Assembly: GCA_003054695.1 (NCBI GenBank)
Contig: QAZA01000045.1
Span: forward strand, 434,001-498,000
DNA length: 64,000 nt
Direction of reading: 5' to 3'
Source: Verrucomicrobia bacterium LW23
GTDB lineage: Bacteria > Verrucomicrobiota > Verrucomicrobiia > Methylacidiphilales > UBA1321
Shown here: piece after piece, positions 13,898-58,488 of the stretch
Position numbering within the stretch: position 1 is the first letter of the stretch
Layout of the letters: each line of letters starts with the position of its first letter
Program-made: the position numbers and the translations under genes
The notes under the pieces: model-generated
The model's database searches: none
The model's input: the letters and a program-made list of their open reading frames with translations, nothing else
Told to the model about the DNA's origin: nothing

Positions 13898-14112
13898 AAA
13901 CAAGAACCGGCGCAGGCAGCGGGTCGCACGACGGGCCGCGAGCGCCCGACGAATCGACATGCACAACGTTAAGCTTTACATTATGCGCATAAGCAGCTTG
14001 CCGAGAAGAAATATTTCGTCACTAACATGAGTCTGTCAAGTGGCAGCACGCCGGTGCCGGATGCGGTTGAGGTGCGGCCCCATCCCTCAACAAGCATCCG
14101 GGTTAACTGATG

Positions 14113-14126
14113 TGCAAAGTTTTGCA
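14113..14126. promoter_or_regulatory. TGCAAA-N2-TTTGCA dyad upstream of the GAF kinase gene
   Basis: TGCAAAGTTTTGCA is a perfect 6-2-6 dyad 40 bases before the start of the GAF histidine kinase. It lies in the 268-base spacer shared with the divergent receiver-kinase gene. The same spacer holds TATGCGCATA near 13982. Both could be operators, but either could arise by chance; no regulator is assigned. Confidence 0.3.
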
Positions 14127-14165
14127 TTGGCGTTGCCGTCATTGAATTTTTCCGCGAAAGGTCGT

Positions 14166-16265
14166 ATGAATAACCAAGTCGTCGCGCCATCAGCGACGCG
14201 CCCCGCCTCCATGCCCCGCAAATCCGCCTCCCCCGCCGCAACGGCCCCACGCGCCCGGCCCGGGGATCTGCCACCTCCTCCGCCTCCGCCCACTGCCAAA
14301 ACCGCACCTGCCGCCAGGGCGCCCGCCACCCATGGCCACGGGGCCGATCGCCGGGGCCGCAAACATGCCGCGCGGGGCGGGCTTCCCGTCGCTGCGGGCG
14401 GCGGCTCGCCCCTGGTGCTGGACGCCCTGTCGCCCCACCCCGCCGCGCCGTTTTTGCGCAACCTTGCGGCGGAGCGCCGGGAAGATCGCGCGGGGTCCCC
14501 CATCTTTGAGCGCCGCGGCAAGCTGCCGGGGCCGGAGCGCGGGCCGGGCGTCCTTTTCCCCGGCCTCTCGATGCCGGAGCTGCGCTGGCTGCTGGATCCG
14601 CAGCGCGCCATCCGCCACATTCTGCGCACGGCGGTGCGCATTACCGGGGCGCGCAGCGGCTCGTTTGTGGTGGTCAACCCCAACACGGGGTTGCTGGAGA
14701 TTGAGGACTCCTATGGCCTTAACCGCCGTGTACGCAAGGTGTTACTGCGCATGGGCGAGGGCGTGACCGGCTGGGTGGCGCTGACGGCGCGCCCGCAGCG
14801 CATCGGCGACGTGAGGAAGGAGCCCCGGTACGTCTCCGTAAGCCCGCGCGTGCTGTCCGAAATGGCGGTGCCGATTGAAATCCATGGCCAGGTGGCCGCG
14901 GTCATCAATGTGGATCACACCACCGTGGACGCGTTCAGCGCCGAGCACGAGGCGTTGCTGGTCTCCCTGGCCGACGAGGCGAGCGAGTGGCTGCGGCAGG
15001 CGTGGGAGATTGAGCATTTGAAGGCGCAATCCCTTCTCTCGCAGTCCCTTGTCAATACGGGCAAGATGATTTCCTCGCAGCAAAGCCTTACCGCCACGCT
15101 GGAGGCCGTAACGCTGCAGGCCAACAAGCTGATGAAAACGCGCGTGTGCAGCGTTATGCTCCTCAGCCCCGACGACAAGGAGCTGATTTTGCGCGCATCT
15201 AACGGAGCCAGTGTCAGTTACGTCAACAAGCCCAACCTCAAGCTGTCGGAGTCCGTGCTCGGCGTGGTCGTCACCCACTGCAAGCCGCTGGCGGTGCTGG
15301 ACGTGCAGAGCCACGAAGGCTATCAGCACCTGGAAGTCGCTAAGGCCGAAGGACTTCGCTCGCTGCTGGCCGTGCCGATTATCTTTAACGAGACCGTCCT
15401 GGGCGTTCTCTCCGTTTACACCACCAAGGAGGTACACCGCTTCTCCAACGGCGAGATCAAAGCGCTGGAGACGCTGGCGGACCTCACGGCCATCGCCATC
15501 GAGCGCGGGACGGACCTGACCTACGTGGTGGAGACGGAAGAAAAACTGCGCGCCAGCGAGCGCCTCTCCGCCCTGGGCCTGCTGGCGGCGGAAATCGCGC
15601 ACGAGATCCGCAACCCGTTGTGCGTCATGCAGATGCTCTTTCACGCGCTGGCCGAGGCCGTGCCGATGGACCCCGTCTCCCGCCGCGATGCGGACATCAT
15701 TGCACAAAAGATGAAGCACCTGAACCGCATTGTGGACCAGGTGCTCAACTTCGCGCGCTCGTCGGAGCCCGCCAAGGAGCTGATCTCCGCGCCCGACCTG
15801 CTGGAGGATATCGGCCTGCTCATCCGCCACAAGCTGGCCCAGGAGCAGATTGAGATGCGCGTGCAGGTGGCGCCAGAGACGCCGGCCTTCCGCGCCGACC
15901 GCTCGCAGGTGGAGCAAGTGCTTCTGAATCTGATACTTAACGGCATGGAGGCTATGCCCGGAGGCGGCATCCTGCGACTGAGCGCCACCCCGGAGTTCCT
16001 GGACGACGTGCCCTGCGTCATGCTCAGCATCCGCGACAACGGCCACGGCATGACCGAGCGCCAGGTGGAGCACCTCTTCGCCCCGTTCCTCACCACCAAG
16101 CAAAAAGGCACCGGCATCGGCCTGGCCATGGTCCTCAAAATTGTGGAGAACCACCAGGGCAAAGTCCTCGTCGACTCCAGGCCCGGCCGCGGCACCGTCT
16201 TTCGCGTCTACTTCCCCGCCGAGACGCAGCCCCTCTCGCTGGTGCCGCCGGCTGCAAAGGGGTAG
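14166..16265 (+). CDS. Double-GAF sensor histidine kinase
   Basis: A 699-residue cytosolic kinase. The N-terminal 140 residues are low complexity (Pro/Ala/Arg/Gly). Two GAF domains follow: about 155-290 (RHILRTAVRITGARSGSFVV...) and 305-450 (LQANKLMKTRVCSVMLLSP...VLGVLSVYT). GAF domains bind small ligands such as cyclic nucleotides or haem. HisKA has phospho-acceptor His479 in LAAEIAHEIRNPLCV. HATPase motifs are LLNLILNGMEAM, IRDNGHGM, LFAPFLTTK and GTGIGLAM. The overall HisKA/HATPase style is NtrB-like. Start ATG 14166 has GAAAGG five bases upstream, so it is preferred over earlier in-frame codons. No response regulator is adjacent; the divergent receiver-kinase is the only candidate partner here. 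Confidence 0.9.
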   Translation: MNNQVVAPSATRPASMPRKSASPAATAPRARPGDLPPPPPPPTAKTAPAARAPATHGHGADRRGRKHAARGGLPVAAGGGSPLVLDALSPHPAAPFLRNLAAERREDRAGSPIFERRGKLPGPERGPGVLFPGLSMPELRWLLDPQRAIRHILRTAVRITGARSGSFVVVNPNTGLLEIEDSYGLNRRVRKVLLRMGEGVTGWVALTARPQRIGDVRKEPRYVSVSPRVLSEMAVPIEIHGQVAAVINVDHTTVDAFSAEHEALLVSLADEASEWLRQAWEIEHLKAQSLLSQSLVNTGKMISSQQSLTATLEAVTLQANKLMKTRVCSVMLLSPDDKELILRASNGASVSYVNKPNLKLSESVLGVVVTHCKPLAVLDVQSHEGYQHLEVAKAEGLRSLLAVPIIFNETVLGVLSVYTTKEVHRFSNGEIKALETLADLTAIAIERGTDLTYVVETEEKLRASERLSALGLLAAEIAHEIRNPLCVMQMLFHALAEAVPMDPVSRRDADIIAQKMKHLNRIVDQVLNFARSSEPAKELISAPDLLEDIGLLIRHKLAQEQIEMRVQVAPETPAFRADRSQVEQVLLNLILNGMEAMPGGGILRLSATPEFLDDVPCVMLSIRDNGHGMTERQVEHLFAPFLTTKQKGTGIGLAMVLKIVENHQGKVLVDSRPGRGTVFRVYFPAETQPLSLVPPAAKG

Positions 16266-17741: not shown

Positions 17742-17898
17742 GAGAGCCTCTAAGCAGAGGATAAAGGGGGAGGAGGCCAAATGTCGACGGCCTCCAAGAA
17801 TCTCAGACTGTGCCTTTGTTCCCACCTTTCAATTTTTGGCGATGGAGTCGGTGCGGGTTGCGGGTGGGGCGCAATCCTGCTACAAACGCAGGCACGTT

Positions 17899-20800
17899 AT
17901 GTCCGACGCGCTTCGTCCGCTACTTCTTGGCCTGGGCCTTATTGCCCTGGTATCCGGGCTTCTGCTGTATGGAGATTTGCCCAATCGCAATCGCCACCTG
18001 GCGCGGCCCAAGGCCGTGGCCACGTCGCCCACGCCCACGGCCACGCAAACGCAAGCGCCCACCGTGTCCCCGCAGACGGAGCCTATACCCGTGGCGCTGA
18101 TGCAGGCCGTCGCCACGCCCCTGATGGACGACGCGCTGCGCGGCCTGGTGCGGGCGCTGGATGAGCGGGGCTACCGCGATGGCGGGCGCATCCGTTTCTC
18201 CCGCTTTAATGCGGATGGCAGTGCGGACACGGCCAACAGCATCGGCACCATGATGGTCGGCGGCTCCTACAAGCTGCTGCTGACGTTTACCACCACCAGC
18301 ATGCAGGTGCTTTACCGCACCAACCGGCAAACGCAATTGCCGCATGTGTTTGGCGTGGTGTCCGATCCCTCCGCCAGCAATGTGGGGGTAAAGAAGCTGC
18401 CGGCCAGCGGGGCGGACAAGCCCGCGTGGATGGCCGGCCTGGGCAGCATGCAGCCGGTGGAGGCTATCTTTCGCGCAGCCAAAAAGCTGAATCCCGATCT
18501 GAAGTCGGTAGGGGTGGTGTGGAACAACGCGGAGATTAACTCCGAGCTTACCGTGCTGGTGGCCCGCAAAATCTGCGCGGAGCTGGGCATTACGCTGGTG
18601 GAGGCCACCGTGCAGGGCACCTCCGAGGTCGGCCAGGCGGCGGACTCCCTGGCGGCGCGGTCCGTCCAGGCCATTTGGACGGGCGGCGACGCCCTGGTGG
18701 CCAGCGCCATGCCGGCGCTGACGTCCAGCGCGGCGCGCAACGGCATCCCCGTTTTCTCCAACGTCTCCGGCAACGCGTTCCAGGGCAGCATGTTTGATTT
18801 GGGCGCCGACTTTGAGGAGGTAGGCTACGCCATGGGCCAGGTGGCGGCCGACGTGCTGGACGGCAAAAGCACGGCGGACATGACCATCAAAAACTACATG
18901 CCGGAGCGCATCATCATCAATTACAAGGCATGGGCGGCCATCCGCGACCGGGACGCCTGGAAATTCCCCGACGACTTCGTCAAGAGCGCCTCCATCGTCA
19001 TCCGCGAGGACGGCACGCGCGAGGACCGCAAGGTGGCCGCCAAGGGGCCCGCCCTGCCCGCTATCCAGAAGCCCGCGCCCTCCGCCGCCACCACCGCCCC
19101 CGTGCAGCCGCGCGAGACGGAAGCGGCGCGCGTTGCCCGGCTGCGCCCCGCCAAACCGCCCGGCGCGCCCCTTGCGCAAAAGTGGAAGCTGAAAGTGGTG
19201 ACGCTGGTGGAGGCCCCGTCGATCGACCAGACCTACCAGGGCATGCTGCAAGGCCTGAAGGACGCAGGCCTGGTGGAAGGGCGCGATTACGAGGTGAGCC
19301 TGGCCAGCGCGCAGGGCGATATGTCCACGCTCAGCAATCTTATCGATGTAGCGCAGCAGCAAGGGGATATGGTGATGACCATCACCACCCCGGCCTTGCA
19401 GACAGCGCTGCAGCGCGTTACCACCAAGCCGGTCATTTTTGCGCTGGCGCTGGACCCCCTGCTTGTGGGCGACAAAGGCACGCACACGCAGCATCGGGAA
19501 AACGTGGCGGGCATCTACGACCGCAGCCCGTTTGAGGCAATGGTGAAGCTGCTGAAAGAGCTGAAGCCCGGCCTGAAGAAGGTGGGCACCCTGTTTGCGC
19601 CAGGCGAGGTTAACTCCCTCAACTTCCGCGAGGAGTTTGGCAAGGCCGCGCAGAGCGGCGGGCTGGAGCTTGTCGTCGAGCCCTCCACCGCGCCGAACGA
19701 GGTGCCGCTTGCCGCCACCACACTGCTGGGCAAAGGCCCGGAGTTTGTGGTGCAGATTAACGACAACCTGCACGACGCCACCTTTGCGGCCATTGCCAAT
19801 GCCGCCAGGCGGGAGAGCAAGCCGCTGATGTCCTTTGCGACGGGCTTTATCAAAGCCGGCGCTGTGCTGTCGCTGGCCAACGACCACTTTCAGGCCGGCT
19901 GGGACGCCTCGCAACTGGCCGCCCGTGTGATGCGCGGCGAAAGCCCGGCGTCGATGCCCTACGTCGGTGTCTCCAACACGCTGCTGGCCATCAATCTCAA
20001 CACCGCAAAGGAGGTGGGGCTGTCCATCCCGGCGGAGATCCTGGCGCGCGCCGATGAGGTGGTGGGGGATGTGCCGGCCGCGGCCACAACCGCTCCCGCT
20101 CCCGCGCCTGCCCCGGCAACAACGTCCGCACCGCCTGCCGCCGATTCGGCGCCCCTCAAAACCGGGCCGCCCACTCTCGGCCCCGGCGGTCGGCCCTGGC
20201 GCATTTTCATCATGAATTACAACGACACCCTCCCGGCCGAGGAGACCACCCACGGCTTTGTGGAAGGCATGAAGAAGGCCGGCTGGGAGGAAGGCAAGCA
20301 CTTTACCTGGCGCATGGCCAGCGGCCACGGCGATCTCGCCACAGTAGCCGCGCTGGTGGACCAGGCCATCAAGGAGGACTCGGACCTCATCGTCCCCATC
20401 TCCACACCTTCACTGCAAACCGCCCTCAAAAAGTGGCCGGAGAACCTCCCCATCGTCTTCGGCTATATCGGCAACCCGATGTACGCCGGCGCCGGCAAAA
20501 GCTATACGGACCACAAGCCCAACGTCACCGGCCTCTCCTCCGTCTCCGCGTTTAAGGAGATGTGCGCCGTGCTGAACGAGCATTTCCCCCACATCAAACG
20601 CATCGGCACCCTCTTTACGCCGGGCGAGATCAACAGCGTCTACTACGCCGACGAGCTGGAGGCCGCCGGCAAACAGTACGGCATTCACGTGGAGCGCGTG
20701 GGCGTGAACGCGGCGCAGGAGATTGTGGACGGCACCAACATCCTGTGCTCGCGCGGGATCGACGCCATTGTGCAGATTTCGGACAACCTCATCAGCGCCG

Positions 20801-21096
20801 GCTTCAAGGGCGTGGCCAAAGCGGCCAAAGTCAACAAGATGCCGATCTTCAGCTTCCAGAGCGGCCAGGTGAAGGACGGCGCCGTGCTGGCCTACTCGCG
20901 CGATTTCCACGACGGCGGCGTTGAGATGGCGGCCATCGCCACCCGCATCCTCTCCGGCACCTCCCCGGCCGATATCCCCTTCGCCAACATCCGCCGCACC
21001 CGCGTTATCATCGACCTCAAAAACGCCGCCGAAGAAGGCATCACCATCCCCGAAGCCCTGCTGCGTAAAGCCGACGAAGTACGCAACAAGCCCTGA
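17899..21096 (+). CDS. Three fused ABC-type substrate-binding domains (PF04392 class)
   Basis: A 1065-residue protein. The N-terminus has one hydrophobic segment (about 7-27, LLLGLGLIALVSGLLLYGD), either an anchor or an uncleaved signal, then a Pro/Thr linker. Three tandem periplasmic-binding domains follow, at about 65-370, 431-728 and 765-1065, separated by Ala/Pro linkers. Each shows the family pattern: GxxxGLxxAG, a TTxxLQTAL or TTSMQVL segment, a KxVGTLFxPGEVNS-like strand (KKVGTLFAPGEVNS in domain 2, KRIGTLFTPGEINS in domain 3), and a C-terminal LNTAKEVGLSIPAEIL type end. Single-domain relatives deliver solutes, often aromatic amino acids, to ABC permeases; none is adjacent. Domain 1 is the most diverged. 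ATG 17899 is preferred because it places the hydrophobic segment at the N-terminus. Confidence 0.85.
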   Translation: MSDALRPLLLGLGLIALVSGLLLYGDLPNRNRHLARPKAVATSPTPTATQTQAPTVSPQTEPIPVALMQAVATPLMDDALRGLVRALDERGYRDGGRIRFSRFNADGSADTANSIGTMMVGGSYKLLLTFTTTSMQVLYRTNRQTQLPHVFGVVSDPSASNVGVKKLPASGADKPAWMAGLGSMQPVEAIFRAAKKLNPDLKSVGVVWNNAEINSELTVLVARKICAELGITLVEATVQGTSEVGQAADSLAARSVQAIWTGGDALVASAMPALTSSAARNGIPVFSNVSGNAFQGSMFDLGADFEEVGYAMGQVAADVLDGKSTADMTIKNYMPERIIINYKAWAAIRDRDAWKFPDDFVKSASIVIREDGTREDRKVAAKGPALPAIQKPAPSAATTAPVQPRETEAARVARLRPAKPPGAPLAQKWKLKVVTLVEAPSIDQTYQGMLQGLKDAGLVEGRDYEVSLASAQGDMSTLSNLIDVAQQQGDMVMTITTPALQTALQRVTTKPVIFALALDPLLVGDKGTHTQHRENVAGIYDRSPFEAMVKLLKELKPGLKKVGTLFAPGEVNSLNFREEFGKAAQSGGLELVVEPSTAPNEVPLAATTLLGKGPEFVVQINDNLHDATFAAIANAARRESKPLMSFATGFIKAGAVLSLANDHFQAGWDASQLAARVMRGESPASMPYVGVSNTLLAINLNTAKEVGLSIPAEILARADEVVGDVPAAATTAPAPAPAPATTSAPPAADSAPLKTGPPTLGPGGRPWRIFIMNYNDTLPAEETTHGFVEGMKKAGWEEGKHFTWRMASGHGDLATVAALVDQAIKEDSDLIVPISTPSLQTALKKWPENLPIVFGYIGNPMYAGAGKSYTDHKPNVTGLSSVSAFKEMCAVLNEHFPHIKRIGTLFTPGEINSVYYADELEAAGKQYGIHVERVGVNAAQEIVDGTNILCSRGIDAIVQISDNLISAGFKGVAKAAKVNKMPIFSFQSGQVKDGAVLAYSRDFHDGGVEMAAIATRILSGTSPADIPFANIRRTRVIIDLKNAAEEGITIPEALLRKADEVRNKP

Positions 21097-31849: not shown

Positions 31850-32836
31850 ATGCACGCTCCTCGTCCCGCCTCCCCGTTGCTCCTGCTTTCGCGCGCCGCT
31901 CTCGTCTCCGCGCTGGTTGTTGCGCTTGCCACATTCGTCTCCCCCCTGCTGGCTCAGGAGTCGGCGCCGGCCACCCCTGCAGGGGCGCCCGGCAAGCTGC
32001 GGGTCGTCTCGCTCTCGCCCGTGCTTACCGATTTTGCGAAGGAGATTGGCGGCGACAAGGTCGATGTTGTCGGGCTGGTAAAGCCGGGTGTGGATCCGCA
32101 CACGTACGACCCGACGCCGGCCGATGCGCAGCAGGTCAGTAGCACGCAGGTGGTGCTCATCAGCGGCAAGGGGCTGGAGGGCTACCTCACCAAGTTTCGG
32201 CAGGCTGCAGGCGGCAAGGCCACGTGGGTGGATGTCGGCGCGGCGCTCCCCTCTCTTGAGGCGCCGGAGCACGACCATGATCACGACGACGATCACGATC
32301 ACCACCATCACCACCACGGGGCTGATCCGCACTGGTGGCACAGCGTGGCCAACGCCAAACTCGCGGTGGGGGTTATACGCGAGGCGTTTGCCGCGGCGGC
32401 GCCGGCCGACAAGGAGTACTTTGCCGGGCGCGCGGCGGAGTACCTGGAGAAGCTGGACGCGATGGACAAGGAGATTAAGGTGGCGCTGGCTGACCTGCCG
32501 CGCGACGCCCGCAAGCTGGTGACGAGCCACGACGCTTTTCAGTACTTTGCCAAGGAGCGTGGCTTTACGATCATTGCCATTTCCGGCATCAGCACGCGCG
32601 ATCAGCCGTCGTCCAAAAAGATCGTGAAGATCATTAACCAGATTCGCGCCGACAAGGTAAAGGCGGTGTTTTACGAAAGTGTGGAGAACCCGAAGGTGAT
32701 CGCTGAGATCACCAAGGAAACGGGCGCAAAAGTCGGCGGCAGCCTGGTGGCCGACGGCCTGGGCGAAGGCGCCGCCTCCACCTACATCGGCATGATGAAA
32801 GCGAACGCTACGACGATTGTGCAGGGGCTGAAGTAA
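31850..32836 (+). CDS. Zinc/manganese ABC transporter substrate-binding protein (ZnuA/TroA class)
   Basis: A 328-residue cluster A-I metal-binding protein. Signal peptide 1-36. Metal ligands expected by family: His in DPHTYDPTPAD (near 82), His in GADPHWWHS (near 161), His in SHDAFQYFA (near 224), and the acidic residue in FYESVENPKVI (near 284). A His/Asp-rich loop from residue 141 (HDHDHDDDHDHHHHHHG) is typical of zinc-specific members and is thought to collect zinc. No permease or ATPase gene is adjacent on either side, so it is an orphan here. A candidate operator lies just upstream. Zinc is preferred over manganese because of the loop. Confidence 0.9.
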   Translation: MHAPRPASPLLLLSRAALVSALVVALATFVSPLLAQESAPATPAGAPGKLRVVSLSPVLTDFAKEIGGDKVDVVGLVKPGVDPHTYDPTPADAQQVSSTQVVLISGKGLEGYLTKFRQAAGGKATWVDVGAALPSLEAPEHDHDHDDDHDHHHHHHGADPHWWHSVANAKLAVGVIREAFAAAAPADKEYFAGRAAEYLEKLDAMDKEIKVALADLPRDARKLVTSHDAFQYFAKERGFTIIAISGISTRDQPSSKKIVKIINQIRADKVKAVFYESVENPKVIAEITKETGAKVGGSLVADGLGEGAASTYIGMMKANATTIVQGLK

Positions 32837-33399: not shown

Positions 33400-33635
33400 A
33401 GCCTGGTTACGCCTGGTCACCTGGTCACCAGGACGGCAGGTTTGAGAGGGGATTGGGAGTGTCAGCGCCTGTGCGCCATTGCCTTTTTTGCGTTACAGGC
33501 TTTCCTTTGACAGAAATTGGATGCAAACTGCGAGGGTTGGTGTATCCCTGAAGTTGGGTTGCCGATGCGATGCGGCACATTGTAGCACCAGGGGCTATCG
33601 ACGGTAGTACCTTTACCAGCATTCCACGGGGGAAT

Positions 33636-36272
33636 ATGATCCACTCACCAATTCGGGCCGCCTTTACCTCCTTTGCCGCTCTGGCAGGCTTTGCGCTAGT
33701 CTTTGGCTCGCAGCGCGTTGCGCTTCGCTTTCTTCAGGCATTTGCCACCGTTGCCGTGGTTTCCGCGCAGGTGTCCGCCAGTGCGTCCGGCCCTGCCAAG
33801 GCTCCCACGTCGAAGTCGGACTCCGGCTCGGCGGAGTCGCAGCGGGCCGTGGAGGCGCTGGCCGACAGGTTGCGCGGCGAGCTGGTGCCGCGCACCGGGA
33901 TGGAGGAGCTTATTGCCACCAGGGGCGTGGATTTCACCATCGCCGTGGTGGACGAAAACGGCAAGCCGGTGCGCTATGCGGATGTTACCCTCGCCTCCAC
34001 CTCCGGCCGCAGCACGGACGGGCTGGAGACGGACGAAGAGGGCAAGCTGACCGGCCGCGTGTGGCCCGGCGCCGTTAAGGTAACGGCAACCGGCACCGGC
34101 CGGCCCGCCGTGCAGGCGGCGTTTCCCGACGGGTTTCCCGCGGGCAAGGCGACCATTGTGCTTCCCAAGGGCAAGCCGTATGGCATCCGCGTGGTGGACG
34201 AGGCGGGCAATCCGGTGCCGGGCGCGGAGCTGACCGTCCGAGCCGCGGACTACAGCTATAGCGTCGCCCTGCGCAGCGGCGACGACGGCTGGGCCACCAT
34301 CTCCCACGCCCCGCGCGGCGACGGCTTTAAGGTGGAGATCGCCTCCAACGGACACTTGCCGCGCACCCTGGGCCTGTCGCTCGAGGGCGACAAGCTGCCG
34401 CTGCCCGTGGTGCTGAAATCCGCCCCGCCGCTGCTGTTGCGTGTGGTGGAGAAGGGCACCGGCACACCGCTGCCGGGCATCGCCGTTACGTTCAACGAGG
34501 CCGAGCCCAGCAACGGTTTTGTGAAACCGCCGTGGACGGAAGCCGCGCTGCGCACCAACGATAAGGGCGAGGCGACCCTCGGCGGGCTGGAGCCGGGCCG
34601 TACCTACTCGCTAAAGCTGCGCGGCGAGCGCTTTGCCGGCAAGGTCGATCTGGTGCTGACCCCGGCGATGACAACTGTGGCGGAGATCAGCCCGCGCCTG
34701 CCCCTCACGCTGGTCATCACCAACCTGCCGCCGCAAAAGGAGAACACGCTGGTGGTGCGGATTGAGGTGGACAGCGACATCCGCACGGTACGCCTGCCCG
34801 TGGCGGACGGGCGCGTGGAGGCGGAGATTCCGAACGGGTATGTGAAGGACGACGACGTCCAGCTGCGCTTTGCCGGGGTTTCGCATACCGAGTCCTCCCT
34901 GACCCCCGAAAAGGCCCGGATTGTGCTCAACTACCTGCCGCTGCGCCAGGAGGCCGCCACCCGCGAGAAAGACGCTTCCTCGCGCACTTCGCCATCCGGC
35001 GAAAGCAAGGACCTGGTGCCCGTAACCTACCACATCAAAACGAAAGGCGGCGAAGCCCCGCCCGAAGGCACGCTGACGCTCCTGTGGTTTCGAAAGAGCG
35101 AGGCCGGCGGCAGGCTTTCCGGCTATGGGCAATACTCCAGTGCGGAGCTGAAAAACGGCGTGGCGGTATTTCACCTGCCCGCCGGTGCCATGGCCCAACT
35201 TTACGATAACGATACCCGCCTCATCGGCGCAAAGCTGGATGCCAGCCACGGCAGCGACAGCAACCATTATTTCCCTGTCCAGGAGCCCGTAGAGAAGTAC
35301 CTTGTGGCAAACCCCACCGGCAACCTGCGCGTGCGTGTGGTGGAAGCCGACGGAACGCCCGTGCAGGGCGCACACGTCATCGCACAAGGGCGGCCCATGG
35401 CAAAGAAGCCACCCACCGGTAGCGGCGGCGGAGAGCAGCAGCAAGAGGACGAAGATGACGACGGGACCGGCGTCGAAAGCCTGAAGGAAAGTATCGGCTC
35501 CCACCTCTCCGACGGCATTGCGGTGGATACCCGCATCATCCGGGTCCTTGCCGGCAAAGGCCTGCGCTTCGCGATGGTGGAGACCTCCCTGGACATTACG
35601 CGCACCAACCGCCTGCAGGAGATTACCGTCAAGCTGCCGCCGGCGCGCAAGGGCGTTATCCGCGTGGTGGACGAGGCGGGGAAGCCGCTGGCGGGCATAG
35701 GGGTCTCCTTTACGGTAAGGGCCGGCAACGTGCATGTCGACATGAACAGCCTGGTCGATCAGCACACCAATCTTAACGGCGAGATCCCCGTGGAGCTCAG
35801 CGCCGACCCGAAGGCAAGCGCCGCCGTGCACGTTACGGCCATCGCCCAAAGCCACCTCCATGTGACGAATGTCACAGAGCTTGGGTTTGATGACAAAGGC
35901 GTGGCGCTCATCAGGCTCACAAAGGGGCGCCGTTTCTTCGGCCGCATCATCAACTACACCGGGCCCCAGGATCTGGAGAACTACGTCGGCATTACCGTCA
36001 TGCCGCTGGCTGCGGATACGGATCACGAAGATGGCATGGACACCTTTGGCGGCTCGGTGCAGATCTCCGATACCGGCCGGTTCGAGATCAACAACGCGCC
36101 ACCCAAATCGCGCCTGCTGGTGCAGGCAGGGGGCCGGGAAGTGCGCTTTATTGAAGGCAACGCCGAGGGCACGCCCGAGGACAAGGAGATAGTGATTGAG
36201 CTTGTCGACAAGAAAGCATCCCGCTCCACCGACAGCGACGAGCCCAACCTGAACAAGCTGCGCGCGCGCTGA
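33636..36272 (+). CDS. Large secreted multi-domain Ig-like protein, first of a tandem pair
   Basis: An 878-residue exported protein of unknown function. The N-terminus is hydrophobic to about residue 50 (signal peptide, unusually long). It then holds at least five beta-sandwich modules of the carboxypeptidase-regulatory/CnaB type. Each opens with a phrase like IRVVDEAGxPxxG: FTIAVVDENGKPV near 108, YGIRVVDEAGNPV near 184, LLLRVVEKGTGTPL near 268, LRVRVVEADGTPV near 564 and GVIRVVDEAGKPL near 673. Linkers near 440-465 and 590-615 are charged and low complexity. GGGGGA just before ATG 33636 supports the start. A paralogue follows after 35 bases in the same order. Adhesion, polymer binding or matrix building are possible; no catalytic motif seen. 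Confidence 0.8.
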   Translation: MIHSPIRAAFTSFAALAGFALVFGSQRVALRFLQAFATVAVVSAQVSASASGPAKAPTSKSDSGSAESQRAVEALADRLRGELVPRTGMEELIATRGVDFTIAVVDENGKPVRYADVTLASTSGRSTDGLETDEEGKLTGRVWPGAVKVTATGTGRPAVQAAFPDGFPAGKATIVLPKGKPYGIRVVDEAGNPVPGAELTVRAADYSYSVALRSGDDGWATISHAPRGDGFKVEIASNGHLPRTLGLSLEGDKLPLPVVLKSAPPLLLRVVEKGTGTPLPGIAVTFNEAEPSNGFVKPPWTEAALRTNDKGEATLGGLEPGRTYSLKLRGERFAGKVDLVLTPAMTTVAEISPRLPLTLVITNLPPQKENTLVVRIEVDSDIRTVRLPVADGRVEAEIPNGYVKDDDVQLRFAGVSHTESSLTPEKARIVLNYLPLRQEAATREKDASSRTSPSGESKDLVPVTYHIKTKGGEAPPEGTLTLLWFRKSEAGGRLSGYGQYSSAELKNGVAVFHLPAGAMAQLYDNDTRLIGAKLDASHGSDSNHYFPVQEPVEKYLVANPTGNLRVRVVEADGTPVQGAHVIAQGRPMAKKPPTGSGGGEQQQEDEDDDGTGVESLKESIGSHLSDGIAVDTRIIRVLAGKGLRFAMVETSLDITRTNRLQEITVKLPPARKGVIRVVDEAGKPLAGIGVSFTVRAGNVHVDMNSLVDQHTNLNGEIPVELSADPKASAAVHVTAIAQSHLHVTNVTELGFDDKGVALIRLTKGRRFFGRIINYTGPQDLENYVGITVMPLAADTDHEDGMDTFGGSVQISDTGRFEINNAPPKSRLLVQAGGREVRFIEGNAEGTPEDKEIVIELVDKKASRSTDSDEPNLNKLRAR

Positions 36273-36307
36273 TAGTCTCGCCCCCCCTCTTATCTCTCTC
36301 CACCGTA

Positions 36308-38890
36308 ATGATATACACCCGCTTTCCCGTCCTGACGCTGCTTCTGCTCCTTGCCGGCGCCTCCGCCTGCCTGGCGGCGGATACCAACGCGCCGGCTGTC
36401 GCCGCCCCCGCCTCCACCGGCACGCCCGACCCGGCCGCGCGCGTGGAGTACATTACGGCGATGACGGCGCCCTACCTGCAGGAGAGCAAGTACAAGCTTA
36501 CCGACGAGGAGCTGACCAAATACTGCAAGCCCTTTACCCTTAACGTGATAAACGAGGCCGGCAAGCCCGTGGCCGGCGCCGAGGTGCGGATGTTCGACGC
36601 CATACGCCCCACGTGGAGCCAGGACTACCAGACAGGCGACGACGGCGTCCTCTCCCACCGCGTCTGGCCCGGCCCGGTGCGCTTTATCATATGGGGCAGC
36701 GGCTACCCCGCACAGGTGGTCATGTACGACACCGGCGTGCCCGACGGCAAAGCCACCATCACCCTCTCCCGCGGCCGCGCCTACCGCGTGCGGTGCGTGG
36801 ACGCCGCCACCCAGGCGCCCGTGCCCGACGCCACCGTGGAGCTTCGCATGGACGACGTCTCCAGCTACGCCCTCATCTCCATTACCAACAAGGAGGGCTG
36901 GGCCACCTTCTCCCACATCAGCGACTCCGCCCCGATGGAGATGACCGTGTGGGAGCGCGACAGCGTTACCGTCAGGCAATCCCACCTGCGGCTTGACGGC
37001 CCGGAACTGGCCCAGCCCGTGCAACTGCGCCGCGTCAAGCCCCTGCGCGTTACAGTAACGGAAGCCGGCACGGGCAAACCGGTGCCCGGCCTGGAGCTTA
37101 GCCTCTACAACACCACCCCGTCCTTCGGCTTTCACAGGCCAGACTGGACGGCCTCGCCCGTGGTAACCAACGCGCAGGGCGAAGCCGATGCGCGAGGGCT
37201 GGAGCCGGGCCGCGTGTACAAGATCCAGGCCAGGGGCAAGTCCTTCGACGGCGAAGTGCGCGTGCTGCTGGATGAATCCCGCCCGACGGCGCGCCTGGAG
37301 GTCCGGCGCAAAATCCCCGTTACCCTGCGCGTCATTAACATCCCCCCTCAGCCGGAGAACCAGCTCAAAGTCTCCTACATGGAGTACGCGGGCAGCAGCG
37401 GCAGCGGCAACACCCACACGTTTGCGGTGAAGGACGGCAAGGTGGAGTTCAAGAAAATGTGCGACCACGGCGCGCGAGTTACCCTTACCTGCGGCGAATA
37501 TGTTGTGGAGCTTGCCAGTGCGGTAACGGAAAGCGTCCTGGAGATGGACTACAAGGGGCTCGCTGACAGCGTCCCGAAGCCCGTCAGGCTCACCGTCCGC
37601 CTACAGCCGCCGGCCGGCGAGGCCCCGCCGCAAGGGGAGCTTACCGTGGGCTGGAGCCGGCAAAGCAAGGCAGATAAGAAAGAGAAATCGAAGCTCAAGC
37701 AATCGGGCTCGGAGAAGGTGGAGATTCGCGACGGCGTAGCTGTGGCGGAGGTTCCGGCCAACACGTCCGCCTATGTGCGCGGCGAAAAAATGTACGGCGG
37801 CTACCTCAAGGACCCGAACAGCCGCAACATCAGCCTGGAGGGCGAGGCCAAAACGATAACGCTGCCGGTTCTGCCCGGCGGCGCCATCCGCGCGCAGGTG
37901 CTGACCCACGAAGGCCGGCTCGCGGTGGGCGCCCGGGCGTACGCGCGCAATATCAACATGGGCTCCGGCGAGGGGGACGTGCCGCTCAACTCGACGGGCG
38001 GCAACTCTAGCAAGCCCGTCCTGCCGTCCACCTGGCACGCCTCCCCCACAGTCCCCTTTGACGCGGAGGACACCTACACCCTGCGCGCGCGCCAGGGCTT
38101 CCTTTACGTGGTGGATAAGCAGCGCTTTGCCATTACGGAGGCCAACTACCTGCACCAGGCGCGCCTTACCCTGCCCCAGCCGCGCATGCGCACCATCCGC
38201 GTGGTGGATACCGACGGCAAGCCGGTGCCGGAGCTGACGATGACGTCCCAGGTCAAGTGCTCGCTGTTCCCGTCCGTCTCCATGTACGACTGGGTGACGG
38301 ACGGCAAAGGCGAGATCCACCTGCCGATGAACCCCAGCGACGAAGAGGCCGACGCCTTCCAGATCACCCTGGCCCCTCGCGAATCCCTGATATGGCAGCC
38401 GCTGAAGCAGCCGGTCAGGTTCAACAAGGCGGGCGTCGCCACGGTTACCGTCCGGCCGGGCGTCCGCATCTTTGGCCGCGTTGTCGATACCACGCGCGGC
38501 AAACTCGCTGCCTCACAGGACCTGAGCCTTCAATGGGGAGCCAAACTCCCGGCCCCCGGTGCCCCCGCCCGCAAAGCCGCCGGCGGCGAGGACGACGACG
38601 AGGACGACGATAACGATGCCGGCACCGTCAGCGTCAACGGCTACGCCCCTGTGGACAGCGAAGGCCACTTTGCGATCTCCTGCGTCCCCAACGCCAAACT
38701 CACCCTCTCGTTCAGCAACCTGCCGGACAAGACCGAAACGGTCTTCCTTACCGGCAGCAGCGAGCAGTACACGCCCAACGGCAAAGAGCTTATCATCGAG
38801 ATCCGCGACCGAAAGCCCGCCAAAGGCGCAGCCGACCAGGACGCCCGCGCCACGCCCCGCCCTGCGCCCTCCCTGGCCGTGCATCCGTAG
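36308..38890 (+). CDS. Large secreted multi-domain Ig-like protein, second of a tandem pair
   Basis: An 860-residue exported protein homologous to the preceding gene over its whole length. The signal peptide is MIYTRFPVLTLLLLLAGASACLA; Cys21 could be a lipidation site, but the box is poor. Modules match the first protein one by one: FTLNVINEAGKPV near 78, YRVRCVDAATQAPV near 158, LRVTVTEAGTGKPV near 244, IRAQVLTHEGRLA near 525 and RTIRVVDTDGKPV near 630. LEPGRVYKIQARGKSFDGEV equals LEPGRTYSLKLRGERFAGKV of the neighbour. An Asp/Glu-rich stretch (EDDDEDDDNDAG) lies near 760. The leader is pyrimidine-rich without Shine-Dalgarno, so translation may follow from the upstream gene. Confidence 0.8.
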   Translation: MIYTRFPVLTLLLLLAGASACLAADTNAPAVAAPASTGTPDPAARVEYITAMTAPYLQESKYKLTDEELTKYCKPFTLNVINEAGKPVAGAEVRMFDAIRPTWSQDYQTGDDGVLSHRVWPGPVRFIIWGSGYPAQVVMYDTGVPDGKATITLSRGRAYRVRCVDAATQAPVPDATVELRMDDVSSYALISITNKEGWATFSHISDSAPMEMTVWERDSVTVRQSHLRLDGPELAQPVQLRRVKPLRVTVTEAGTGKPVPGLELSLYNTTPSFGFHRPDWTASPVVTNAQGEADARGLEPGRVYKIQARGKSFDGEVRVLLDESRPTARLEVRRKIPVTLRVINIPPQPENQLKVSYMEYAGSSGSGNTHTFAVKDGKVEFKKMCDHGARVTLTCGEYVVELASAVTESVLEMDYKGLADSVPKPVRLTVRLQPPAGEAPPQGELTVGWSRQSKADKKEKSKLKQSGSEKVEIRDGVAVAEVPANTSAYVRGEKMYGGYLKDPNSRNISLEGEAKTITLPVLPGGAIRAQVLTHEGRLAVGARAYARNINMGSGEGDVPLNSTGGNSSKPVLPSTWHASPTVPFDAEDTYTLRARQGFLYVVDKQRFAITEANYLHQARLTLPQPRMRTIRVVDTDGKPVPELTMTSQVKCSLFPSVSMYDWVTDGKGEIHLPMNPSDEEADAFQITLAPRESLIWQPLKQPVRFNKAGVATVTVRPGVRIFGRVVDTTRGKLAASQDLSLQWGAKLPAPGAPARKAAGGEDDDEDDDNDAGTVSVNGYAPVDSEGHFAISCVPNAKLTLSFSNLPDKTETVFLTGSSEQYTPNGKELIIEIRDRKPAKGAADQDARATPRPAPSLAVHP

Positions 38891-40711: not shown

Positions 40712-42043
40712 GTGTTCGATAAAATCCTGCATCTTTCCAGTCCCAAGGCCAAGCCGACCCGCCGGGCTGTGCCGCCGCCCATCCCCGCCATCCACCCCTC
40801 GGCCGCCGCCCGGGCCGAGCCCGCGCCGGACGAGGTGAAGGAGAAAGCGCCGGAAAGCATCGCGGCCGAGCCGGTTGTTGCAGAAACGGCCGCCGGGGAA
40901 ACCGCCCGGCGCCATGTGGAAATGGAGCGCGCAAGCCAGGCACCCGCGGAGCCCGCAGCGCGAGAGGAGATGCAGCCCGGGGAAGCCGACGCGAGCAGCC
41001 CTTCCGCCGAAATGGGAGCCGAAGCCGAGTCGGGCCCCGCCCCAGGCGAGAACGAGTTCGAGATCAAGAGCAAGGGCGAGGACGAGAGCGAGCCCGCCAC
41101 CGCCCACTCCGAACCCACCGCCGCGCCGCCCGAGGAGCAGGAACCCATGGCAACAGATGAGCCCAGGCCCGCGCCACGGGACGACAACGACCACAGCGAC
41201 GAGAGCGACGCCCTGCCGGAGCCCGGCGCCGAGCACGCCGCTGCGGCCTCCGCAACTGCCGTGGAGGATGAGCCGGAACCCGAGCACCAGGCCGATCCCG
41301 AGCTTCAGTCCGCGCTTAACGAGCTGGACGAGGCGCCCGCGGAGCACCAGGCGCCGCATCCACCCGCGTCGGCCAATCCGCTGCATGCCGCGCCTGTGCC
41401 GCACGCCTCCGCAGGGCCGCATGCCGCGCCGCACGCGCCTTCCCGACGTGGCGCCCGGCCGCATCCCCCGCAGCCTCAGCCGCACAGCGGCGCCGATCCC
41501 ACTTTTCGCCCCGAAGAATCCAGCAGCAGCAGCGACGACGACGACACCACCGCCACCCCTTCCATGAACGACAAGCGCATTACCCTGCAGCCCTCCGAGA
41601 CTTATCGCCCTGCGGCGCCCGGCGCGCGGGCCGCATCCAGCCCCGCCGACGCCTTTGGCAACAGCGCGGAGCACGCCATCCTTAGCGCCGATACGGAGTT
41701 TCGCGGCGCCCTCGCCTTCTCCGGCAGCCTGGAGATGAACGGCCGCATCGAAGGCACCATTGACAGCGAGGACGGCACGCTTACCGTGGGCGAAGAAGCC
41801 CTGGTGAAGGGCGAGATCCGCGTGCACAACGCCATCGTCTACGGCAAGGTGCAGGGCAACATCACCGCCGGCGGCCGCATTGAGCTGCGTGGCCCCGCCC
41901 AGGTGTACGGCGATTTGCGCGCGCTGCGCATCGTGATTGAAGACGGCGTCGTGTTCGTCGGCCGCTCCGACGTGCTGCGCGAAGCCGAAAACCGCGCCGA
42001 CTTTACCCAGATTTTCCAACGCCTGGCCGCCCCGCGCGAGTAA
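40712..42043 (+). CDS. Bactofilin with a long acidic N-terminal region
   Basis: A 443-residue protein whose last 120 residues (about 320-430) are a bactofilin domain, a right-handed beta-helix that polymerises without nucleotide: FRGALAFSGSLEMNGRIEGT, LTVGEEALVKGEIRVHNAIVYGKVQG and RIELRGPAQVYGDLRALRI. Residues 1-320 are disordered-looking, rich in Glu, Ala, Pro and Asp, and end in a SSSSSDDDD stretch, where most bactofilins have only short tails. The start is GTG 40712 (MFDKILHLSS), preceded by no Shine-Dalgarno. A scaffold role in cell shape or envelope organisation is expected from the family. Divergent from the sulfatase gene. Confidence 0.9.
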   Translation: MFDKILHLSSPKAKPTRRAVPPPIPAIHPSAAARAEPAPDEVKEKAPESIAAEPVVAETAAGETARRHVEMERASQAPAEPAAREEMQPGEADASSPSAEMGAEAESGPAPGENEFEIKSKGEDESEPATAHSEPTAAPPEEQEPMATDEPRPAPRDDNDHSDESDALPEPGAEHAAAASATAVEDEPEPEHQADPELQSALNELDEAPAEHQAPHPPASANPLHAAPVPHASAGPHAAPHAPSRRGARPHPPQPQPHSGADPTFRPEESSSSSDDDDTTATPSMNDKRITLQPSETYRPAAPGARAASSPADAFGNSAEHAILSADTEFRGALAFSGSLEMNGRIEGTIDSEDGTLTVGEEALVKGEIRVHNAIVYGKVQGNITAGGRIELRGPAQVYGDLRALRIVIEDGVVFVGRSDVLREAENRADFTQIFQRLAAPRE

Positions 42044-42251: not shown

Positions 42252-42383
42252 TTAAAACTCCCCTCGCCTTGGCTGGGGTACAGGAGCGGGGTTTTCCCCG
42301 CTACTGGGGTGAGGGAAGAGAATGGCTGCCTCCAGGGGCTGATGTGAAGTGAAGCGTTAGTGTCGTGCTGCGTTGCGGAAAAT

Positions 42384-42406
42384 CGGGTTGTAAAAGTTTT
42401 TACCCG
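42384..42406. promoter_or_regulatory. AT-rich dyad in the leader of the pseudokinase gene
   Basis: The arms CGGGT and ACCCG enclose GTAAAA...TTTTAC, giving a near-perfect 23-base dyad (one bulged T) in an otherwise AT-rich patch 320 bases upstream of the gene. It could be an operator or a leader RNA hairpin. No regulator identified. Confidence 0.35.
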
Positions 42407-42725
42407 TAAAAAGGTAGAAATTTTTGCGAGGAGTATTGCATTTTTATGGAACATCCATATAAATATGGCGGGGCGGGGAATCCGACGGGAATCGCAGCAT
42501 AACACTTTTGAGGTGACACGCGCGAAAGCGCGTTGCCTGGCCGCGCACCTTAACGTGTTGAAAGCCAAAATCTTAGCGCCAGGCGCCGGCGCCACGGATC
42601 GCCCCCAATCACCGCCCTCGCCTCCCCCATACCTTCGCATCGCTCCCTTGCCCGCCGCCCCACTCCTCGCGTCGCCTGGCGCCCATGCTCGCCCCACTTC
42701 CTTAACGCCCAACCCTTTTCCCTCC

Positions 42726-45359
42726 ATGGCCGGCCTCCCTCCCATCGCACCCTCTCGCTACGAGTGGGCGGACCTTCCTCTGGGCGTCAGCATTACGGGC
42801 GCCGTGCACCCGGGGCGGGAGATTGGCAAGAGCGACACCACGCGGGCCGTCAAGGTGCTCAAAGCCGGCGCCTGGCAGCGCGATTTGCTGCACCAGACGC
42901 TGGCCCGCATGGCCGACGCCCCGGCGCACGCCGGCATCTCCCGCGTGCTGGACATGCAGCTGGACCGCGAACCGAGCTTTCTTGTCGGCGAGTGGTGGGG
43001 CACCGCGGAGGCCGGCCGCCATCGCCCGCGCAGCCTGGCCGCCATGCGCAAGTCCCTGCGCCGCAGGGAGATTCCGCGCCTGTTGCTGGAGCTTGCCGAC
43101 GCGCTTGCCCACCTTCATCGGCACGGCATTTTCCACGGCGCCGTCAAGCCCACCAACATTTTGCTGACGCCGGATCACCACGTCAAACTGACCGACGTAG
43201 GCGTGCTGCCCACCGGCGCCGTGCGTAGCGTGCCGCTGGCCACGGAGCCCTTTTTCTCCCCGCCCGAGCAGTGGCGCAACCCCACCGCGTGGGACGACGG
43301 CCGCGGTCAGCTGTGGGATGTGTATAGCTTTGGCGCCGTGGCGTTTATGCTCCTGGCGGATCGCCTGCCGCGCCTGCACAACCTGGCCGCCACCCTGGTG
43401 CGCGGCGGCAGCGCGATGGACGACTCGAGCCGGCCGGCCGCCACCGATCGCCGCATCTTTACGCCCGAGCGCGTTGCGGAGCTGCTGGAGCAGGTCACCA
43501 CGATCGCCTGGCCCGCCCGCACCAGCGTGGACCCCGCATGGCGCAGCGCCATCACCGCCTGCCTGCAAATTGACCCGGACGCCCGCCCGCGCGACATGAG
43601 CGAGGTGTGCCGCATGATCGCCAGCGGCCATCGCGAGCAGCGCCGGACGACCGTGCGCGGCTTTTCCACCGCGCTGATGACCCTCTCCGCCGCCGCCGCC
43701 GTGGCCGCGCTGGGCGGCTGGGGCACGTGGATGTGGTACAACAGCCTGCAGGAAATGGCGCAGCTGCAGAAGGAAGTTGCCGCGCCTTTGGCGGAGTCCG
43801 CCCCCGCGCAGGAGCAGCAGGCGCGGCAGGACAAGATCAAGAAGTATCTTGCCTCGCGCTCCACGGATCTCCCTGCCATTCAAGCCCTTGCACGCACGCA
43901 ACTGATTCTGGATCAGGAGGCCGACCTGGCCGAAACGCTGAAGCTGTGGACGGCGCTGGAACCCAATCGCTCCGTTGCGTGGTACGATATTACCGGCGAC
44001 GCCGCCCGCAAGCGCCGCGATATGCGCCCCGCCCTGGAGGCCTACGAGCGCGGCTATGCCATCGCCGGCAACACGCCGCGCGGGCAGGAGCTGCTGGAGG
44101 AGATTGAACGCCTGCACATTGCCGGCGGCGAGTACCGCAGCGCCGCCGAAGCCGTCACCCGCATGCTGGCCGCCGAGGACACCACCGCGCTGCGCATCCG
44201 CCGAGCCCGCCTGTACCTGCTGGCCAACAGCTGGCGCGAGGGCTATGCCGACCTGGAGACGGTGCGCAAGCGCGATCCCAACGCGGCGCTGCTCCGGCCC
44301 ATGGCGCCGTACCTGACCACATTTGGCACGCTGATCAAAGCCCTGGAAGAGGCGGACCGCGCCGTGCTTCAGCACCCCAACGAGGCCGCGCCCCACGCCC
44401 AGCGCGCCGCGCTGCTGATGCTGTGCGGGCAAATGCCGGCCGCGCGCGCCAGCGCCGGTCGCGCCCTGGAGATTATCCCCGCCTCGCTGGGCGCCCGGCC
44501 GGCGTACGCGGCGCCGGAAGCCGCTCTGCCGCAAGTGGTTATCGGCCTTACGCACATGGCCATGCAGCAGCATCCGGAGCTGGTGAGCTTTTCGCATCCA
44601 CTAAGCACCAACGGCTCGCTGGGCATGGCGGGCCCCGCCCCCGTCGCGGCGCCCGCCGGCAGTCCGCCCCCGGAAATCCTTGCGGTGGAGCAACTTCCCT
44701 CTTCCGAGGCGTTGACGGAGCTGGGCGTGCTGGACGAAGCCGTGCGCACCCGGCCGGGCGCCGAGTCGCTGGCCAAACGCGCCGCGGCCCTCAACCGCAT
44801 CGGCCAGTACAATCTGGCCCTGGCGGACGCCAAAGCTGCCGTGGCCAGCGACAAACGGCATATCGCCGCCCAGCTGCAACTCGTCATTGCGCTGGACCAG
44901 CTGGACCGCGCCAAGGAGGCGCTGAGCACCATTGTGGCGCTGAGCGAGCGCAGCCCCAAAGACGCCCAGATTTGGGAGTGGCGCGCCCGCACGGAAAAGC
45001 TGCTGGGCCGCATTACGCTGGGCCTGGAAAGTGTCCGCAAAGCGCTGGACCTGGCGCCCGGCGACGAACCGCCGGCCGCGCTTGTGCAGCTCCAGCAGGA
45101 GCTCAAAGCCATGGCGCCCTCCACGTCCGCACCGGCAGGGGACGCCCCGCAAACGCGCAGCTCCGCCCCCATCCGCGCCGACCGTCAGCGCGCCGCCGAT
45201 CGCGGCCCGGAGCGCAACAGCACCGGCGCGGGCGATCGCCAGGACCGCACGGAACGCCCGACGGAGCGCATCCGCACCCGCCCTGCACCCGCTCCGTCTG
45301 CGCCCACAAGCACAGCCGCCCGGCGCGAGTCCGCCCCACGTTCCGTGCCGCAGCCGTAA
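42726..45359 (+). CDS. Membrane-anchored pseudokinase with TPR-like region
   Basis: An 877-residue protein with a eukaryotic-type Ser/Thr kinase fold at about 14-300 that looks inactive. The glycine loop is unrecognisable. The beta-3 lysine remains (Lys43 in TRAVKVL). The catalytic loop reads HGAVKPTN, so the catalytic Asp is Ala139, and DFG is DVG (Asp157). The C-lobe is normal (PPEQW, DVYSFGAVAFMLL, DARPRDMSEVCRMI). One membrane helix (about 314-338) separates it from a large helical region with TPR-like repeats (about 375-800; KTLWTALEPN-type helices, ARTEKLLGRITLGLESVRKA). The tail is Pro/Ser/Arg-rich. The domain order suggests a cytosolic pseudokinase and a periplasmic TPR scaffold. ATG 42726 begins the domain. 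Confidence 0.85.
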   Translation: MAGLPPIAPSRYEWADLPLGVSITGAVHPGREIGKSDTTRAVKVLKAGAWQRDLLHQTLARMADAPAHAGISRVLDMQLDREPSFLVGEWWGTAEAGRHRPRSLAAMRKSLRRREIPRLLLELADALAHLHRHGIFHGAVKPTNILLTPDHHVKLTDVGVLPTGAVRSVPLATEPFFSPPEQWRNPTAWDDGRGQLWDVYSFGAVAFMLLADRLPRLHNLAATLVRGGSAMDDSSRPAATDRRIFTPERVAELLEQVTTIAWPARTSVDPAWRSAITACLQIDPDARPRDMSEVCRMIASGHREQRRTTVRGFSTALMTLSAAAAVAALGGWGTWMWYNSLQEMAQLQKEVAAPLAESAPAQEQQARQDKIKKYLASRSTDLPAIQALARTQLILDQEADLAETLKLWTALEPNRSVAWYDITGDAARKRRDMRPALEAYERGYAIAGNTPRGQELLEEIERLHIAGGEYRSAAEAVTRMLAAEDTTALRIRRARLYLLANSWREGYADLETVRKRDPNAALLRPMAPYLTTFGTLIKALEEADRAVLQHPNEAAPHAQRAALLMLCGQMPAARASAGRALEIIPASLGARPAYAAPEAALPQVVIGLTHMAMQQHPELVSFSHPLSTNGSLGMAGPAPVAAPAGSPPPEILAVEQLPSSEALTELGVLDEAVRTRPGAESLAKRAAALNRIGQYNLALADAKAAVASDKRHIAAQLQLVIALDQLDRAKEALSTIVALSERSPKDAQIWEWRARTEKLLGRITLGLESVRKALDLAPGDEPPAALVQLQQELKAMAPSTSAPAGDAPQTRSSAPIRADRQRAADRGPERNSTGAGDRQDRTERPTERIRTRPAPAPSAPTSTAARRESAPRSVPQP

Positions 45360-56765: not shown

Positions 56766-57404
56766 ATGGCCGACGCGTCCGCTCCCCCTACGCCGCTGCT
56801 CTCACCTGCCCTGGCCGCCTCGGCGGCGCGGATAGCGGCGCTGCGGGCCAGGCGCCGCGTGTGGTTCTGGGCGGTAATCCTCTCCGGCGTGGCCTCCCTG
56901 GTGCTGCTGATCGGTACTTTTGCGCTCTCGCTCCACCATTTCCGCGCCGCCATGGCGGTGTTGCCGGACGACGGCGCCGTGGATGCGGCCCTGCCCTCGC
57001 AGCCGCCCCGGTTCTCCGCGGACGTGCTGCGCTCCCACACCGGCGCGGCGGTGGGCACACTGGGCACAGGGCTCTCGCTCTTTGTCGTGGGCACGATCGT
57101 CTTTCTGTGTGCCGTCTCCTGCTACATCAGCACCCGCGCGCAGATCATCGAGGCCGAAAAGAACGCGCTGAACGCTGAAAACCTTGCAGCCGAGCTGGTT
57201 ACCGAAGCCGACATTGCGCGCGAGGCCGCTGCCGACGAAGCCATCGCCCGCCAGCTCGGCCTCGGCCCCTACGCCGCGCAGATCCCCGTAAACCCGCCGC
57301 CCGCCGCCGATGCCGCGCGCTTCCAGGCCATCCTGGAGGGGAAGTCCGACAGCGCCGCCGAGGGTGCTACGCCTCCCGCGCCGCCGCCGGCAGACGCGCC
57401 GTAG
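56766..57404 (+). CDS. Two-helix membrane protein of unknown function
   Basis: A 212-residue protein with hydrophobic helices at about 32-56 (VWFWAVILSGVASLVLLIGTFALSL) and 98-121 (TLGTGLSLFVVGTIVFLCAVSCYI). An Ala/Glu-rich coiled coil (about 123-160) and a Pro/Ala tail follow. Its 3' end overlaps the convergent ketopantoate reductase gene by 38 bases. It is divergent from the DUF4178 gene, with a spacer of 93 bases. No family recognised. Confidence 0.7.
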   Translation: MADASAPPTPLLSPALAASAARIAALRARRRVWFWAVILSGVASLVLLIGTFALSLHHFRAAMAVLPDDGAVDAALPSQPPRFSADVLRSHTGAAVGTLGTGLSLFVVGTIVFLCAVSCYISTRAQIIEAEKNALNAENLAAELVTEADIAREAAADEAIARQLGLGPYAAQIPVNPPPAADAARFQAILEGKSDSAAEGATPPAPPPADAP

Positions 57405-58377
57405 CGGCGGGGGATGCGGTGTCCGGCGTTGCAGCCGGGGCGGAAGCGGCAGCGCCGGCGCGGGCGGAGGTGATCTTTTTGAGCAGGTAGTACAGCATCT
57501 CCAGCCGCGGCACGGGCACGCCCATGTTGCGGCCAATGCGGCAGGGCTCGCCCCAAATCGCCTCCACTTCCACGGGGCGGCCGGCGTCGAAATCGATGAG
57601 GCTGCTGGGGCGGTAGGGGCCCATCACGCGCGTTTTCTCCAGCATTTCTTCCTGAAAGGAGGTATCGATGCGGTAGCCCAGGCCGGCGGCGACCATGCGC
57701 ACCTCTTCCATCAGCGTGGCGGCCAGGGAGCGCAGGCCGGGGTCGAGCAAAATCTGATGCACGTCCACGGAGCCGGCCACGATGCTGAGGCCGTTGAACG
57801 GCACGTTCCACACCTGCTTGCGCCAGCGGGCCTCGCGCAGGCTGTTGACGACCACGATGTGCAGCCCGGCAGCCGTGGCGGCCTGGGCAAACGTGTGGGT
57901 GCGCGGCTGCGGCAGGCGCCCGTACTCGCCCAGGTGAATGCTGCCGTGGCCAAAGTTCTCCACCACAGCCGGCCCGGTGCGGTTAAGGCACACAAAGCAC
58001 AGGCCGCCCATCACGCGCTCCTGGCCAAACAAGCCGGCCAGGTGCTCCTCGTTGCCCAGGCCGTTTTGCAGGGTAAGCAGCGAGGTGTTGCGTTGAAGCA
58101 GCGGCGGCACAATATCGCGCAACGCCGCGTTGCTGGTGGATTTAACCGCGACGATAACCCAGTCCACCGGCCCTATGTCCTTGGCGTAGCGGTAGATGCG
58201 CGGCGAGGCCAGGTGCTGGACATCCCTCCCGTTAACGACGCGGATGCCATTGGTCTGCGCCGCCTCGTAGTCGGACCGCAGCAAAAAATGCACGTCCTCG
58301 CCCGCCAGCGCCAGCCGGGCTCCGTAATACAAACCGATAGCTCCACTGCCGACAACGGCGATGCGTCCGATACCCAT
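57367..58377 (-). CDS. 2-dehydropantoate 2-reductase family protein
   Basis: A 336-residue NADPH-dependent reductase of the ApbA/PanE family, which makes pantoate for coenzyme A. The Rossmann motif is IAVVGSGAIGLYYGARLALAG. VIVAVKSTSN and LLTLQNGLGNEEHLAGLFG are the usual cofactor and substrate loops, and RWRKQVWNVPFNGLSIVAG carries the catalytic-type lysine. The C-terminal 25 residues are an Ala/Pro tail beyond the usual length. Many paralogues act on other 2-oxo acids, so no panE name is given. Its tail overlaps the convergent membrane-protein gene. Confidence 0.9.
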   Translation of the reverse strand: MGIGRIAVVGSGAIGLYYGARLALAGEDVHFLLRSDYEAAQTNGIRVVNGRDVQHLASPRIYRYAKDIGPVDWVIVAVKSTSNAALRDIVPPLLQRNTSLLTLQNGLGNEEHLAGLFGQERVMGGLCFVCLNRTGPAVVENFGHGSIHLGEYGRLPQPRTHTFAQAATAAGLHIVVVNSLREARWRKQVWNVPFNGLSIVAGSVDVHQILLDPGLRSLAATLMEEVRMVAAGLGYRIDTSFQEEMLEKTRVMGPYRPSSLIDFDAGRPVEVEAIWGEPCRIGRNMGVPVPRLEMLYYLLKKITSARAGAAASAPAATPDTASPAATARLPAAAREA

Positions 58378-58488
58378 GTGGCCAGTGTAGCCGAAAGCGC
58401 GGCAAAGCGCTACTGCGTGAGGAAAACTTTGTTGCTGCGGCTCGCGCTTATCCGCGCGCTCATCCGGCCGTGGGGCGCGCCGGCAGCG

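Follow-up and report, generated by a model that had tools for sequence, protein, structure and literature searches.

Free-standing counterparts of M56 receptor ectodomains may be encoded by a tandem gene pair in a verrucomicrobial genome

Introduction

Two adjacent genes in Verrucomicrobia bacterium LW23 encode large proteins built of successive beta-sandwich modules. What are these proteins related to, and what might they do? The genes lie in a 64,000-nucleotide stretch of contig QAZA01000045.1 (positions 434,001 to 498,000), here called the window; all coordinates without another prefix are window positions. We consider it roughly an even bet (probability about 0.5) that the pair, together with an unlinked paralogue, are exported, non-enzymatic, free-standing counterparts of one subclass of M56 receptor ectodomains.

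Results

The pair consists of two closely spaced genes on one strand. Gene A (33636..36272, + strand) and gene B (36308..38890, + strand) are open reading frames of 878 and 860 amino acids, respectively. Each is predicted to encode a putatively exported, eight-module TTR-like array protein, on the basis of Pfam matches to CarboxypepD_reg and, for gene B, a structural model. If translation began instead at the in-frame ATG at 33570, the gene A product would have 900 amino acids. The first-pass annotation had the lengths and the 35-base spacing right, although it called the proteins giant; at 860-880 amino acids they are large, not giant. No terminator-like site was found on the + strand of the 35-base gap (36273..36307, +), and co-transcription of the two genes is plausible.

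The neighbouring genes named earlier, encoding ZnuA, YidD, and a sulfatase, are also as described, with yidD directly upstream of the pair and the sulfatase gene on the opposite strand. The ZnuA-type zinc-binding protein (31850-32836, +) carries a His-rich stretch, and no transporter ATPase or permease gene was seen among the neighbours examined. Elsewhere in the window, a 1086 amino acid open reading frame (17836-21096, +) contains three stretches of ABC_sub_bind (PF04392) and apparently represents a fused multi-copy substrate-binding protein; a GAF-GAF histidine kinase is encoded near it (14040-16265). A bactofilin whose long N-terminal part is of low complexity (40712-42043, +) precedes a Ser/Thr kinase containing TPR repeats (42360-45359, +). 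An 814 amino acid open reading frame (57310-59754, +) has no Pfam match at 1e-5.

Both proteins begin with hydrophobic segments that resemble export signals, in keeping with the secretion proposed for them. Read from the sequence, gene A has a putative N-terminal export signal spanning about residues 1-50, with no cysteine (33636..33785, +), while gene B has a putative signal peptide (36308..36379, +). From these segments, we infer putative export of both products. The gene B sequence LAGASA-C21 also fits a lipobox, and the product could be a lipoprotein. Direct reading of the C-termini of both proteins found no LPXTG sorting signal.

Gene A and gene B are paralogues with the same module order. 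BLASTP gives a single collinear alignment (E 1e-73, 29% identity, 812 amino acids). We cut gene A into eight blocks (m1-m8), placed each in gene B, and compared the scores with those of 100 shuffles. For all eight blocks, the in-order position in gene B was the best place, and seven scored above the best of the 100 shuffles; the other, m6, scored 64 vs 71. When the blocks of gene B were permuted, the true score was 713, against a maximum of 448 among 300 permutations. The common order reported in the first-pass annotation is thus borne out and was understated, as it extends over eight modules rather than five.

All blocks are on the + strand. Block m1 (residues 96-178, 33921..34169) finds its best match at gene B residues 76-155, in order. 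Blocks m2 (residues 178-262, 34167..34421), m5 (residues 455-556, the ‘GEAPPxG’ block, 34998..35303), m7 (residues 668-765, 35637..35930), and m8 (residues 764-862, 35925..36221) each have an in-order match in gene B, as does m6 (residues 556-668, 35301..35639), which contains an acidic insert, at the score below the best shuffle given above. Block m3 (residues 262-352, 34419..34691) and block m4 (residues 352-455, the ‘NLPPQxEN’ block, 34689..35000) have in-order matches in both gene B and a third paralogue. The motif LEPGRxYxxxxRGxxFxGxV, previously noted in both proteins, is indeed found in each; in gene A it falls in m3.

The third full-length paralogue (869 amino acids) is encoded on another contig of the window's genome (L005:5368-7977). 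It is a single gene, standing between a gene for an M50-like membrane protease and a LacI-like gene (neighbours read from sequence). It forms one clade with gene A and gene B (support 100/100). The collinear full-length paralogy of the pair and the presence of this third copy support the earlier proposal of whole-gene duplication followed by divergence, and the pair itself is best read as the product of a tandem duplication. Neither a homologous copy nor an adjacent pair was found in 11 genomes of the same family or 61 of the same order. Plasmid records yielded nothing, and short peptide patterns scanned twice against public genome contigs found no relative, which is weak negative evidence, the patterns being drawn from 2-3 sequences. 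Profile searches across 384 genomes of the class, with two candidates scored per genome, matched only proteins of about 1000-1200 amino acids.

The modules are of a widespread beta-sandwich type. Pfam places CarboxypepD_reg (PF13620) at several positions in both proteins; gene A (80 bits, three stretches) and gene B (62.7 bits) pass the curated cut-off of 32.3, while the third paralogue (29.5 bits) falls under it. Weaker, overlapping matches in the pair are to Big_1, SpaA, and macroglobulin domains. Big_1 reaches 56.9 bits in gene A (cut-off 34.9) but is overlapped by better CarboxypepD_reg matches. Blocks m4 and m5 belong to no Pfam family. Pfam detects no enzyme domain in either protein, as the first reading had it. 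A sequence search of solved structures returned no match, and NCBIfam returned a sub-threshold match only.

Structural modelling was informative for gene B. The gene A model, built from three sequences, has a pLDDT of 39.5, while gene B residues 70-640 (modules 1-6), modelled from 13 sequences, have a mean pLDDT of 84; the pTM of 0.57 leaves the relative placement of domains uncertain. Whole-model Foldseek comparisons have low TM-scores owing to domain orientation, and fold calls therefore rest on single domains. Module 1 (residues 72-160, 36521..36787, +) is TTR-like, matching 9hfj with a VIA-align Z of 11.7 (rmsd 2.0, 80 aligned). Module 2 (residues 156-243, 36773..37036, +) is likewise TTR-like and matches 5aq0_A, the transthyretin-like domain of carboxypeptidase D (Z 11.2, rmsd 1.7, 78 aligned). 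Module 3 (residues 244-335, 37037..37312, +) is a similar beta sandwich, matching 3e8v (Z 10.7, rmsd 3.1, 82 aligned) and the pilus backbone 4uzg (Z 8.9). The top structures for these three modules are TTR/CNA-B-like, and the models indicate a TTR-like fold. The term Ig-like used previously is therefore loose, as modules 1-3 appear to be beta sandwiches of the CarboxypepD_reg/CNA-B type rather than classical Ig.

The array is homologous to one kind of M56 receptor ectodomain. In BlaR1, sensing of a ligand falls to the outer domain and destruction of BlaI to the inner M56 protease (PMC7593790). Those relatives of the whole array that we checked in the class are BlaR1-type M56 proteases, in which the array forms the C-terminal, extracytoplasmic part; by Pfam they combine M56 with CarboxypepD_reg. 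A gene for a BlaI-type repressor lies directly upstream in 8/10 of these receptors (four by Pfam, four read from sequence). Aligned by hhalign, the three proteins of the window's genome match ten M56 ectodomains with Prob 100 and E 1.1e-41 over 698 columns, at 17-21% identity to the receptors. The in-register score is 343, against 121 for the best out-of-register alignment. The third paralogue alone, as a single-sequence profile, gives a partial match of 519 columns. The ectodomain profile finds no match in M56 proteins that have a different C-terminal part, so the likeness is to one specific ectodomain. One M56 receptor gene (L018, G106:C121, about 5880) has a single in-frame TGA within the ectodomain, which points either to a disrupted gene or to an error in sequencing. 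In the literature searched, we found no paper on M56 receptors with such ectodomains.

Could this likeness arise only from a common module? The proteins would then be ordinary secreted TTR/CNA-B arrays, serving as a surface stalk or adhesin. CarboxypepD_reg and CNA-B-like modules are common, and pilins and adhesins are numerous among the structural matches of modules 1-3. Moreover, blocks m1 and m7 fit another ectodomain module better than their in-order partner, the in-order place of m7 being only second-best. Against this, the collinearity is full length, includes m4-m6, and far exceeds that of other arrays: for the four further CarboxypepD_reg arrays compared, alignments of 237-268 columns score 105-135. 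It also exceeds every block permutation, with 0/300 as high as the observed 338 (best permuted 287, median 161). Blocks m2, m3, m5, and m6 have in-order counterparts in the ectodomain, while m4 matches weakly, yet in order, and m8 weakly. Both m5, whose match is position-specific, and m6 lie outside the repeated CarboxypepD_reg matches, and their single or far best place is the in-order one. The permutation result argues largely against the homology part of the ordinary-array explanation, which we regard as unlikely overall. End-to-end homology of gene A, gene B, and the third paralogue to this ectodomain subclass is well supported by the sequence comparisons.

In other genomes of the class, CarboxypepD_reg arrays also occur as C-terminal fusions to sigma-70-type factors (L021:332-3787, by Pfam; L046:2464-5388, read from sequence). 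We rejected such fusions as the closest relatives of the pair since their matches are short or scattered. A short helix with an ‘ERI’ motif, shared with the receptors, in which it follows the last membrane segment, was rejected as a trace of descent, as this segment alone is not significant. The tree parts the proteins of the window's genome from the receptors and, being unrooted, carries no direction of descent.

The receptor half was not detected. The N-terminal membrane bundle with the M56 HExxH protease is missing from the pair: Pfam M56 has no match in gene A or gene B. Neither an M56 protease gene nor a BlaI (PF03965) gene was detected in the window's genome, which is 95.4% complete, while the identical search finds M56 genes in several genomes of the same family. 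The remaining few per cent could still hold an M56 gene.

Discussion

We favor the view that the pair and the third paralogue are free-standing relatives of a receptor's outer part. Their products would be periplasmic or cell-surface proteins of rod-like shape that bind or act as scaffolds, using an ectodomain-type ligand- or envelope-binding surface without signalling through BlaI. As nothing but an outer part is retained in the window's proteins, the pair most likely binds or scaffolds something in the envelope, independently of that signalling route. Tandem duplication would have given rise to the two genes, and each copy probably works alone. Such proteins might descend from a receptor whose protease half was lost, or the ectodomain might instead have been acquired by the receptors; either is compatible with our results.

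A more specific version, which we consider improbable, is that lineages without M56 and BlaI keep, duplicate, and secrete the ligand-binding half as soluble binders or decoys, the pair being a specialised two-ligand form. Also improbable is that the free ectodomains are signalling accessories that present a ligand to another membrane sensor or sigma factor, or withhold it. This would fit the homology to receptor ectodomains and the fusion of similar arrays to sigma factors in other genomes, but no receptor or regulator gene adjoins the pair among its neighbours, and neither M56 nor BlaI was found in the genome. Improbable too, and not supported by our comparisons, is an obligate heteromer, or two-component surface structure, along the lines of the heteromeric pair envisaged in the first-pass annotation: the genes are adjacent on one strand with no terminator-like site between them and are alike in length and module order, but tandem duplication alone explains their adjacency, conserved pairing is not demonstrable with no such pair in the other genomes searched, and the relatives, which that annotation had in advance set against a paired function if single and unlinked, are just that, the third paralogue standing by itself and the distant relatives being single receptor genes paired with BlaI.

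Free-standing ectodomains would also be of practical use. For M56 receptors beyond BlaR1/MecR1, we know of no ligand of the outer domain. Soluble, exported versions of such a domain could be expressed without the membrane parts, which would make receptor sensing directly testable. Furthermore, the case shows that module order, rather than domain content, can distinguish large CarboxypepD_reg arrays from one another.

Comparison with known systems places the pair closest to one group of receptors. Proteins with CarboxypepD_reg (PF13620) or CNA-B (SpaA, PF17802) domains, pilin shafts, and adhesins have the TTR-like beta-sandwich module in common with the pair. Unlike sortase-anchored CNA-B pilins and adhesins, the pair has no C-terminal LPXTG, and Pfam assigns no family to its m4 and m5. 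The sensor of staphylococcal BlaR1/MecR1 is a class-D beta-lactamase-like domain (PMC7593790). The likeness of these classical receptors to the window's proteins is one of general plan only, namely, a receptor with an outer sensor part; their sensor is not a TTR-like array, whereas the window's proteins are TTR-like arrays with no M56 part. M56 receptors with CarboxypepD_reg ectodomains (P0004, L017:2866-6291, and relatives) have an extracytoplasmic part that is homologous from end to end, with the same module order. In contrast to these receptors, the pair has no membrane bundle, M56 protease, or BlaI neighbour and carries a putative signal peptide instead, and the window's genome holds three free-standing copies.
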